Below are positions 49,701 to 55,700 of a stretch of 64,000 bases of DNA, piece after piece. The stretch's first letter is position 1; each line of letters starts with the position of its first letter. This DNA comes from Apostichopus japonicus. Its lineage: Eukaryota; Echinodermata; Holothuroidea; Aspidochirotida; Stichopodidae. The notes below the pieces were generated by a model. It was not told where the DNA came from, ran no database searches, and worked only from the letters and a program-made list of their open reading frames with translations. Both the position numbers and the translations under genes were made by a program. The stretch spans positions 26,208,376 to 26,272,375 of the forward strand of contig NC_092567.1 of NCBI RefSeq assembly GCF_037975245.1, given 5' to 3'.

Positions 49701-52700
49701 ATATGTTTGCATTCTCACCACCAACCATATGTTTGCATTCTCACCATGAACCATATGTTTGCATTCTCACCAACTACCATATGTTTGCATTCTCACCAAC
49801 TACCATATGTTTGCATTCTCACCAACAACCATATGTTTACATTCTCACCACCAACCCTATGTTTGCATTCTCACCAACTACCATATGTTTGCATTCTCAC
49901 CAACTGCCATATGTTTGCATTCTCACCAACTACCATATGTTTGCATTCTCACCAACAACCATATGTTTGCATTCTCACCACCAACCCTATGTTTGCATTC
50001 TCACCAACTACCATATGTTTGCATTCTCACCACCAACCATATGTTTGCATTCTCACCACCAACCATATGTTTTCATTCTCACCATGAACCATATGTTTGC
50101 ATTCTCACCAACTATGTATGTTTGCATTCTCACCAACTACCATATGTTTGCATTCTCACCATGAACCATATGTTTGCATTCTCACCAACAACCATATATT
50201 TGCATTCTCACCAACTACCATATGTTTGCATTCTCACCAACTACCATATGTTTGCATTCTCACCAACTACCATATTTTTGCATTCTCACCAACTACCATA
50301 TGTTTGCATTTTCACCAAATACCATATGTTTGCATTCTCACCAACTACCATATGTTTGCATTCTCACCAACTGCCATATGTTTGCATTCTGACGACCAAC
50401 CATATGTTTGCATTCTCACCAACTACCATATGTTTGCATTCTCACCAACTTCCATATGTTTGCATTCTCACCACCAACCATATGTTTGCATTCTCACCAA
50501 CTACCATATGTTTGCATTCTCACCAACTACCATATGTTTGCATTCTCACCAACTACCATATGTTTGCATTCTCACCAACTGCTATATGTTTGCATTCCAG
50601 CAGATATTATAGTTCCTAGCACATTTATTTTCTCTTATTGAACAGAAAGTTGTGAGTAAGTGATAATTAGTTTAATTATTTCATAACAAGTACATTTCTT
50701 ACTCTGAGTCTCTGACACTAATATCCACATTAACATTTTATGTCCTTGCACATCTTTATATTCTCTGTGTTGCTGATATATTGTTTTTCTATTAATCCCT
50801 TCCTTTGAGGATTCTGGTCTACAAAGTTTTTTGTTAAAATATCTTGGGAATTTTCTTGACTTTGTACATCTCCTTGTGTTCAACTTCCTTTATGCCACGA
50901 GAGCCAGAAATTTGCATCATTATTTTCTTCTCCTATATTTGAGTTTTTTGTCCCGAGCTGGTGCACAGGTGAGGCACCAAGTTATTCTTCACATCAGTAT
51001 CTCCATCATATAACCTTTATCAATAATCATGTACTAGGGTTTCTTAGGTGAGGTACAAAGTTATTCTTCAGTCAGTATGTCCATCATATTATGTGGATCA
51101 ACAATCATGTGCTTGGGTTTTGTCTCACTTTCCTCATACAGCAGCAGGCTGTGGTCAATTCAGATGTGCTCTCAGATGGCAAGTACAGGATATGGTCAGG
51201 AAAGCTAACATGGAGGGAGGTAAGAAAGAATTAAAACCAAAAGAAAATAGAGCTTAGACAGATGTGAGAAACTGTGAAACAGCTGAGATAGTAAAGAAAG
51301 AATAAAATTAAGCAAAATATAGTTCTGACGAAGCAAAGAAAGTGTCCTTGCCAGAAAGAGATTTGCACCAGATATAATCTCTCCTTGAAGAACATTTGAT
51401 ATAAAGTATTGTACTCATCAGTTTTGTCACAGATATTCCTAGTAAGCCAATTCCAACCAGTTGTAATTGGAAATGAACCTTTAAATTATCAAAATTAATT
51501 ATTAGTATTTGTTAGATTATTAGAAGACAAAAGCATCCATGCCTTTCATGTAACTCTTTAGTCAGGAAGTTTATGAATCAAACCAGTTTATGTGTTACAG
51601 TAACAAAATGCATTTCACGGCTGAAATTTCTTTAACATATCAGATAACTTTGCAAAATGTTTGTCATTTGGGTGTAGGTCTTCTTATTATTTGATATGCC
51701 ATAGTTGCATATATGTACAGTATTTGGTTGCATATGCATATGTATTGTGTTGAATATGCATATTGATTTGAACTAGTAATTTTTATCTCAAAGGGACTAA
51801 TAAGCCTTTATATATAACTTGGTTTTAGAATTCTTGTCATGCTAAGTTTCTGTTGGAACCCTGGGTTCTTTTGTCATACTATTGTCCAGAATCATGGTGT
51901 TTATTTTTCTAATGATTTGCAGCTTTATATTCAGTCTTGAGCTGTGTTTTCTCTTCACGATCTAGAACGCAGATAAACCCAAAGAACCGTCCCCCTCGTA
52001 CTCGGTCGTCAAGTGCCATTTCCATGATTTTCATACGGATGCACCAACAACCATCAATGTCTCATCTTGGCCGGATAAGTTTTCAATGCACCTCATTCCA
52101 CGTCATTACATTGTAAGTAGCATAACCCCCTCCCACCCCCTCCCTGCCCCCTCCCCCCAAAAAACAACAGAGATCCTAAAAGAATGACACTAGTGTAATT
52201 TGATATAATGTCTTTTCATGCGACTGGTTATGTTTATTCATAGAACTTGTCAGTACAAAGAGATACAGAACCCACCATGTTTGTATTTCTGCTAGGTTAG
52301 TTAAAACAGTCCGTTGTACTTGAGAAATAAAGTTAAAATTAGAAGAATATCCCACAAGAACAGCAATCTGTTCACTCATGCAACTAGTACACTGTTCCCC
52401 TAAAACAATTGACTACGTATATCTTAGTATCAACCAACGTAATATCATCAGATGGAGATTAACGTCATTAGTCAGAACTTCAGTCCAAAGTTTGCTATGC
52501 AAATAAGGCTAGGCCTAGATACATATGTTTTAGAGTTTGCTCTAGGCATAACAGGTGGTTAACATCTGCTGTTATGTTAAAGCATCATGGTAGAACCATA
52601 ATTGATAGGACTATTAGCATAATTGGCCTTACTGGAATTATCATATTCTGTGATTATAAAATTTGAAATAGAGTACAATCATGATAGTTTTACCTTTTGC

Positions 52701-55700
52701 TTCTTTTTGCTTACTTTTACCAAAGCTAATTTTTTCGTTCCTTTGTTTACATCCGGCAGAAATCGATTGAAGAGCACATAAAAGGTGCTAAGAAACTCTT
52801 CATTGAATTTGACAAAGATGACGAAAATAAGAAACAAGTGGATAAGATCACAACTGCACTGTTGGCCGATATGGTGAGTTGTTTATTTATATTTCTCATT
52901 TGCTATTCCTCTGTGAGAGGCATGGCTTATTATTTTGCAGACATGTTTTTGAAATATTAGTCCAAATGTCATTGGTGCAAAGGTACCTGATTACCTGAGA
53001 AATATTTATTTTAAAAGACCAAATTTCTTTGTAGTTAAACTTTGCAACTGAAATTTATGAATTTTTTAGATGGATATTCCTGGTTTTGTGGTAGGCGATG
53101 TATTATGTTTTAGGTCGGTGTCCCTGGTAAAACAATCGGCAGTTAATCAGGATCACCTCAACCTATATTGCTCAGTTGGTAGAGTGTAGGACGTACAACA
53201 TCCAATTATAGACAGTAAGGTCTTACTAACTTGTCAATCCCTACAAGAACTTTAAGCTATAATATAACTGACTGTTAACAGAACCATCTCCCTTCTCACC
53301 CTCTGGTTTAAGCATTTAGATTAAGTTACAGATTGTGAGGAAAACTTAGTTTAATACCCAGTATGGGCTTTCAAATTGTAAGAATAACAAAAAAAAATTG
53401 CCAACTTCATTGGTTTTATAAACAGTTAAGTAATATAATGTTGAGAGTATAAAAAGAATACATGGCAAAAAAGTGTTGAAGAATTTATACATTTTGAAGA
53501 AAATTATACTAGAATTAAAAACATTTGGCCTGCCTGACTAATATGTACGTTCATAAACGTCTATATTTCTATTCTCTGCCGTAGGTTGGTATTGCCTGCT
53601 ATTTCACTGGTCCCACCAAGATCGGCGTCTTCATTGTGGCTTGCATACGAAGGCTTCAGAAATATGTGGCGCTGGTTCCGGCCCAGCAGAAAGAAGTTTT
53701 GAGAACGTTACGAGATGTCGCAGGTGACAAGATGAGGGTGTACCTACAAGAAATAGCAAAACAGGTGAGAAATACTGACTTTATAGGAAATAGCTGATTG
53801 TCAAACAGTTCATGGCCTTGTATCTGTCTTTTGTAGCCATTCTGCTTACCAACAGAGCACATTTATGACAATGTAGATACAATTTAAAAGAATAGTCCAG
53901 GTCAAAATTTCATTTTGATATGTTAAAGAGGAACATAACCTAAAAGCATTCTGGTGAAATGTGCAATCAATTCCTATGTACGGTTTATATCTCGAAAATT
54001 CCCCAGTTTTTTTTCATTCAATCATATGTCAGAGGGATCTGTTAATGATTGACCCAGTCTTATCAGATGCTAGATATTATATCCTTCAAATGGTACAAAG
54101 TTGACACACTCAACCAGAGATGTGTCAAAGATTGCCCCAGAATTAACTGTCTGCAAAAAGAACTTGCAAGATTACCATACATCACCTAAAATATGATTTT
54201 TATATTGTATTATTTTCATCAACAATTGAGTCAAATTTCTCGAGATGACATAAAGAGCCTGTATCCATTATGTTACTCCCTGTCATTTATGGTTATTTTC
54301 TGTAACAATTTTAATAAATTGGTCATATTTCCATAGCCATCTTGTTTGAAATCATTGTCATTTGTTTGTTACCGTAGCAACCCAAACCTGTGATGCCAGC
54401 CACCACACCAGAGAATGCTCAGACTACATTAACGACTACTACAGCTTCTACTAGCTCTTCATCCAGCACAACGACCTCTGCCAATGACACTAATACCACA
54501 GATAACGCTGAGAACCATACAGGAAAACTAGCTAACATTGGTAACATGATAGGTGGTGACGGTACAGGTTACAACGACATACCCAAGAAGAGCAATCCGG
54601 ACGATCCCAATGAAGATTGGTGCGCCGTATGCCAGAATGGAGGGGACCTACTCTGCTGTGATAGCTGTCCCAGGGTGTTTCATCTACAGTGCCATATACC
54701 GCCTCTCCTCTCCACTCCAAAGTAAGATATATTCTTTGGACATGTCTTTTTGTCTCAGACTTTCTTTCTGTGGTGTCCCTTTGTATCATAAATATTGAAT
54801 AACCAGCAATGAACGTAAACAATGTTTGTGACTTTGACAATATGATTTTGTCAGATTGAGACAGACACAAAGACTGTACAGCCCATCGTGTTTAGAATTT
54901 GATTAACAATTTCAGACTTTTCTCTCAAATGTGAGATTTTCCTTCCTAAACACCTGGCAAAATTAGACCACAAGTTCATTTTTTGGGTGTTTTGCGCTTT
55001 TAATCTGACAGCTCAAAACTGTCATTGTTAACAGAACAAGTCTCTATTGTTTGTTAAGCTACTCTGATGAGGCAGTCAGTACAACTATGACCCTGATGTT
55101 AGGGGTGGTGTGCAAACAATGACCCTGTTGCTAGGGGTGGTGTGCAAACAATGACCCGTTTTTAGTGGCGGTGTGCAAACAAAGACCCTGATGGTAGGGT
55201 TGGTATGCAAACAATGACTCTGTTGGTAGGGGTGGTGTGCAAACAATGACTCTGTTGGTAGGGGTGGTATGCAAACAATGACCCTGTTGGTAGGGGTGGT
55301 ATGCAAACAATGACCCTGTTGCTAGGGGTGGTATGCAAACAATGACTCTGTTTGAGGGGTGGTGTGTAAACGATGAACATGTTGCTAGAGATTGTGTGCA
55401 AGGGGGAAGGGGGAGTGTGCAGATTTTAACTTGTCTCACATTCTCTTTTACAGTGATTCAGTCCCTTGGAGCTGCACTTTCTGTCAAGAGCTTGCAGAGG
55501 AACCTGAAGTACTGGTTGCAGAGAACGGAGTTGTCCAAGACACAGTGGCAGGAACTGAAGAAGCAGGGGAAGGCTCTAGAAAGAGGAAACGAGAGGAAAA
55601 ACTTACAGAAAGAGACAGAAAGGTAAGATGTTTGTTAAATTTCTCAAAGAATTTAAAGGTATTAAGTATTATGACTAAATATGCTAGAAAAGTCAAAGAA

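Follow-up and report, generated by a model that had tools for sequence, protein, structure and literature searches.

An activator-interaction domain of MED25 type in a TIF1 gene of Apostichopus japonicus

What would the activator-interaction domain (ACID) of MED25, which binds transcriptional activators (PMC4038590; PMC7564715), do inside a TIF1 protein, and how did it come to lie there? The question is raised by a gene of the sea cucumber Apostichopus japonicus that lies in a window of 64,000 nt (G000:C7:26208376-26272375, on a contig of 26.9 Mb in an assembly of 671.6 Mb). The gene model comprises 15 exons on the plus strand (38161-58160) that form one frame of 1,132 residues, and all 14 introns are bounded by GT...AG and have consistent phases. 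An earlier note, made from the letters of the window alone, had proposed that an ACID of MED25 type is built in frame into this protein.

Domain identity and support for the join

The encoded protein carries, in this order, a RING, two B-boxes, a coiled coil, a disordered region, the ACID, a PHD finger, and a bromodomain; apart from the ACID, this is the architecture of the TIF1 proteins TRIM24, TRIM28, TRIM33, and TRIM66, including their disordered middle. When the full protein was compared with Pfam, the Med25/ACID model PF11232 matched residues 669-813 with 63.5 bits (E 2.8e-17), and the 173-residue ACID piece alone (residues 655-827), for which the earlier note had suggested a profile search, scored 67.4 bits (E 1.7e-18) where the cut-off is 25 bits, with positions 4-149 of the 154 in the profile aligned. 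The proposal of an in-frame ACID was thereby borne out, as was the placement of RING, B-boxes, and coiled coil before it and of PHD finger and bromodomain after it: Pfam matched RING families, two B-box stretches, a PHD finger at 909-952 (34 bits), and a bromodomain at 1000-1084 (66 bits), all eight Cys/His residues of the RING are present, and so is the conserved Asn of the bromodomain. E3 ligase activity and histone reading are predicted from this domain content. The same Pfam search found only one PF11232 stretch, hence no second ACID, no match to Med25_VWA, and no SPOC family at E ≤1 in the protein. The best PDB matches of the ACID piece are MED25 ACID entries (E 2.9e-6), and its pairwise score against the MED25 ACID of either A. 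japonicus or human was reached by none of 1,000 shuffles. We are highly confident both of this architecture and of the homology to the ACID of MED25.

When the ACID part was used as a protein query, two of 340 candidates matched at E ≤1e-3, both from A. japonicus and both 100% identical over the region, namely P0002 ("transcription intermediary factor 1-alpha-like isoform X2," 1,131 aa) and P0001 ("tripartite motif protein 33 isoform 1," 771 aa). These NCBI models, in which the ACID is joined to PHD finger and bromodomain and in one of which the RING is also present, are placed on two contigs (698,585 and 26,897,543 bases, the latter listed for P0002) that probably represent two assemblies. 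P0002 is our gene model minus one Q, as would follow if splicing chose the downstream AG of the tandem acceptor CAGCAG (51142/51145). This difference and the label "isoform X2" suggest, while not proving, that the junction has transcript support. P0001 has 32 residues that are located at 55930-56025 in intron 12, within a low-complexity repeat that runs on to about 56350 and is coding in this model, where it stands in for the first part of the bromodomain; of the bromodomain profile, only positions 48-83 are aligned by Pfam in this protein. The architecture is already visible in automatic annotation, and its novelty is one of description, not of data. The earlier note knew of no described TIF1 with this architecture, and none of the papers listed in our literature searches, judging by titles and abstract openings, describes an ACID in a TIF1 protein; the human TRIM catalogue assigns PHD-BROMO to TRIM24, 28, 33, and 66, and its text mentions neither PTOV nor MED25 (PMC2533329).

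Origin and distribution of the ACID exons

A PF11232 search of the whole A. japonicus genome gave two matches at a single locus on the same contig (C7:24798475-24799597, minus strand); the short ACID exons of the window itself went unreported in this search, which can therefore overlook weak copies. The locus encodes MED25: two upstream pieces in the same orientation, when joined, match Med25_VWA with 93 bits, and its ACID matches PF11232 with 124 bits and MED25 in the PDB with an E value of 1.4e-26. The ACID of the TIF1 gene and that of MED25 are about 1.46 Mb apart on opposite strands. Each is encoded by four exons, all of phase 0, with sizes of 78, 147, 114, and 180 nt in the TIF1 gene versus 69, 144, 114, and 150 nt in MED25, and the introns fall at alignment columns 26, 75, and 116 versus 26, 75, and 113. 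Because the third exon has 38 codons in both genes, the offset of the third intron probably reflects the placement of gaps. Since the introns match, the comparison indicates that genomic DNA holding MED25-type exons was the template of the cassette and that the copy is old. A retrocopy of MED25 was rejected because the ACID introns are kept. A recent duplication was likewise rejected, as positions 50601-54378 have no nucleotide match at E ≤1e-3 to a 50-kb stretch containing MED25. A PTOV1-like intermediate may have been the source of the cassette, and the location on a single contig favours a local origin, old linkage being the alternative account.

The distribution among relatives was surveyed by searches that reach only proteins sharing short exact words with the query. 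A search with the RING, B-box, and coiled-coil (RBCC) part yielded 288 proteins at E ≤1e-10; among the best 120 of these, PF11232 was found only in P0002, and the other 119 are 28-36% identical to the TIF1 protein over this part. A search with the stretch from the ACID to the C-terminus, in which 7,988 candidates were scored, yielded 223 proteins at E ≤1, and among the best 120 of these PF11232 is confined to the two A. japonicus entries, P0002 and P0001. The next-best matches are from crinoids (Anneissia, Antedon) and sea stars (Asterias, Patiria), and the C-terminal part is 40% and 47% identical to two crinoid proteins over 70% and 48% of the query stretch, respectively. No PF11232 match was obtained, up to an E value of 10, in any of seven relatives, namely two crinoid and two sea-star proteins (P0122-P0125), two mussel proteins, and a lancelet fragment; a hidden ACID in the four other echinoderm proteins was accordingly rejected. 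An alignment of the TIF1 protein with seven others (four echinoderm, two mussel, one chicken) places gaps or short unrelated linkers opposite the ACID block in all seven. Because two crinoid and two sea-star TIF1 proteins do not carry the domain, the simplest reading is that the ACID was gained after the split from sea stars, the named proteins seen including none from sea urchins, brittle stars, or other sea cucumbers.

Predicted activator capture and competing explanations

We propose that four phase-0 ACID exons were copied into a TIF1 gene of the TRIM24/33/66 type, between the half that encodes the coiled coil and the half that encodes PHD finger and bromodomain. Judging by homology, the ACID would grip amphipathic activation domains or CBP-like coactivators, and the domain content implies that a RING ligase and histone reader would thereby reach activator-occupied chromatin. 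TIF1-ACID and MED25 would compete for the same activators, which would probably be damped, either by ubiquitylation or by being kept off Mediator in the way that PTOV1 competes with MED25, although this last step is a guess. The protein PTOV1 is not known to have a RING, PHD finger, or bromodomain. It is the nearest working precedent, by analogy, for an ACID that acts outside Mediator: like TIF1-ACID it carries the domain outside that complex, it takes CBP from MED25, and it is encoded near MED25 in human, but it has two ACID domains and the TIF1 protein has one (PMC5355357). MED25 itself shares with the TIF1 gene the PF11232 domain, the number and phase of the exons, and the positions of the introns, and differs in having a VWA domain, through which it contacts Mediator (PMC5355357). 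The earlier note says of ACID domains that they connect activators to Mediator; the ACID alone would not do so.

Residues that bind VP16-H1 in MED25 are K413, P414, I449, Q451, V534, I537, and R538 (PMC7564715). The corresponding residues of the TIF1 ACID are, in the same order, K, P, S, H, L, L, and R, so that three of the seven are identical (K413, P414, R538), two are conservative replacements (V534 and I537 by L), and two are changed; the isoelectric point is 9.34 versus 9.6 for the MED25 ACID. The activator-binding groove thus appears partly kept and partly altered, and the preference for activators has probably changed.

Overall, a TIF1 with an ACID cassette that competes with MED25 and probably damps activators is the explanation we lean towards, if by a modest degree. 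Within it, binding of activators by the TIF1 ACID seems to us probable, and it is plausible that a ubiquitin ligase on chromatin captures them, whereas damping through the ligase is put forward tentatively. Equally tentative is the wider proposal that MED25 exons made TIF1 in this lineage an activator-directed ligase and histone reader, a Mediator competitor that can mark the activator or nearby chromatin. Several observations weigh against these proposals. The TIF1 ACID is identical to the MED25 ACID of its own species at 33 of 156 positions (21%) and to that of human at 34 of 153 (22%), and because the two MED25 domains share 48 of 146 (33%), it has diverged strongly. The change Q451E abolishes VP16 binding in MED25 (PMC4038590), and the TIF1 ACID has H at this position and S at I449. 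Among the eleven MED25 residues shifted by Dreb2a (PMC4038590), two of the ten compared (S426 being left out) are identical, namely T503 and L525. Skipping of exons 7-10 (519 nt) could yield an ordinary TIF1 by splicing. Finally, a structure model of P0002, built from eight alignment rows and with a mean predicted local distance difference test score (pLDDT) of 44, drew helices over residues 725-825 and no beta barrel, at pLDDT values of about 21-62 across the ACID; as the ACID is represented in just one of these rows, we treat the model as uninformative on its fold, and it speaks neither for nor against the seven-stranded barrel with three helices that marks the ACID of MED25 and PTOV.

Some of these observations would be explained if the inserted ACID were real and had lost MED25-like activator binding, serving as another protein-contact module or a spacer and perhaps confined to an alternatively spliced form. 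The low identity to MED25, the altered positions Q451, I449, H499, K411, and K519, and a symmetric cassette whose skipping would keep the frame all fit this account, but four ACID exons without a stop or frameshift, the basic isoelectric point, the retention of the three motifs first noted and of K413, P414, and R538, and the nearly complete coverage of the Pfam profile do not, and we consider it unlikely, if the most serious of the alternatives. Vertebrate TRIM24 is a nuclear-receptor coregulator, a fact that we count in favour of TIF1-ACID being a coactivator instead of a damper, one in which activators would bring a PHD-bromodomain reader and its partners to chromatin and transcription would be stimulated. 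The activator-interacting nature of the MED25 ACID also fits such a role; because no VWA was matched by Pfam, the protein has no known Mediator contact, and its RING retains the full set of eight Cys/His, so that we regard coactivation as less probable still.

The remaining alternatives concern the join and the fold. Were the join an error of the assembly or of the gene prediction, exons resembling those of MED25 would lie inside a TIF1 intron and would not be spliced in; a 4.5-kb satellite occupies intron 6, and the join is known here from genomic DNA and gene models. Against this, models on two contigs join ACID, PHD finger, and bromodomain (one of them RING and ACID as well), every intron has GT...AG borders and agreeing phases, and the one-Q difference of P0002 fits splicing to the downstream AG of CAGCAG, which makes an artefact very improbable. 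A SPOC or other beta-barrel fold in place of the ACID has, in our estimate, a negligible chance: the ACID and the SPOC of SHARP/SPEN are related beta-barrels (PMC5355357), but the significant PF11232 match without any SPOC match, on which SPOC identity was rejected, and the intron pattern common to the TIF1 ACID and MED25 speak for the ACID.

The gene is an apparently clear case of exon shuffling that unites two transcription modules, the activator-binding domain of a Mediator subunit and the chromatin reader and ligase of TIF1, and it parallels PTOV1, the other ACID protein outside Mediator. It also offers a natural test of whether recruitment of activators becomes control over them once an activator-binding domain has been moved onto a ubiquitin ligase.

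Gene layout and neighbouring elements

The exons are listed in table 1. Exons 7-10 are in phase 0 on both sides, and because their summed length of 519 nt is divisible into codons, a TIF1 form without the ACID is a possible product of splicing. By eye, the IKPEPG stretch of exon 6 resembles the KQEPG stretches of other TIF1 proteins, and we take it to be SUMO-site-like.

Table 1. Exons of the TIF1 gene (positions in the window) and the ACID exons of MED25 (contig positions)
Feature	Position	Strand	Content
Exon 1	38161..38347	+	Start codon and first part of RING
Exon 2	39497..39747	+	Remaining RING and B-box 1 (presumed place; Pfam matched two B-box stretches and placed one)
Exon 3	40640..40797	+	B-box 2, residues 166-201, the last residues in exon 4
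Exon 4	41460..41642	+	Coiled coil; helices 188-216 and 218-313 in an otherwise poor structure model
Exon 5	42497..43567	+	Remaining coiled coil, then long region with pLDDT <50
Exon 6	45551..45662	+	Linker with IKPEPG stretch; phase 0 at end
Exon 7	51142..51219	+	ACID part 1, WSGKLTWRE; acceptor is the tandem CAGCAG
Exon 8	51966..52112	+	ACID part 2, with an 11-residue motif
Exon 9	52760..52873	+	ACID part 3; 114 nt, same size in MED25
Exon 10	53585..53764	+	ACID part 4: YVALVP and segment aligned with last MED25 helix
Exon 11	54378..54721	+	Thr/Ser-rich linker, then first part of PHD finger
Exon 12	55454..55622	+	Remaining PHD finger
Exon 13	56677..56751	+	First part of bromodomain
Exon 14	57575..57727	+	Bromodomain with conserved Asn 1073
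Exon 15	57984..58160	+	Bromodomain end, basic tail, stop
MED25 ACID exons	G000:C7:24798475-24800403	-	Same contig as TIF1 gene, 1.45 Mb away

The satellite of intron 6 (46062..50597, plus strand) lies directly upstream of the ACID exons and consists of about 174 copies of a 26-bp unit, some 4.5 kb in all. Two exon pieces of RPL27A (uL15), which is oriented head to head with TIF1, are found on the minus strand at 35817-35987 and 36652-36786; joined, they match no Pfam family at E ≤0.01, and their identity comes from the PDB comparison (E 5.9e-53). Exons encoding DENN and dDENN domains lie farther upstream on the plus strand (18184-20105) and belong to a gene that is possibly of DENND2 type. RPL27A and DENND2B adjoin TRIM66 in human. 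The human TRIM66 gene is at 11p15.4 (PMC2533329), and RPL27A and TIF1, with the DENND2-type gene if it is one, may form a very old gene neighbourhood. An identical stretch of 25 bases occurs in opposite orientation in introns 1 (38680-38704) and 3 (41328-41352) of the TIF1 gene and may belong to a small mobile element.

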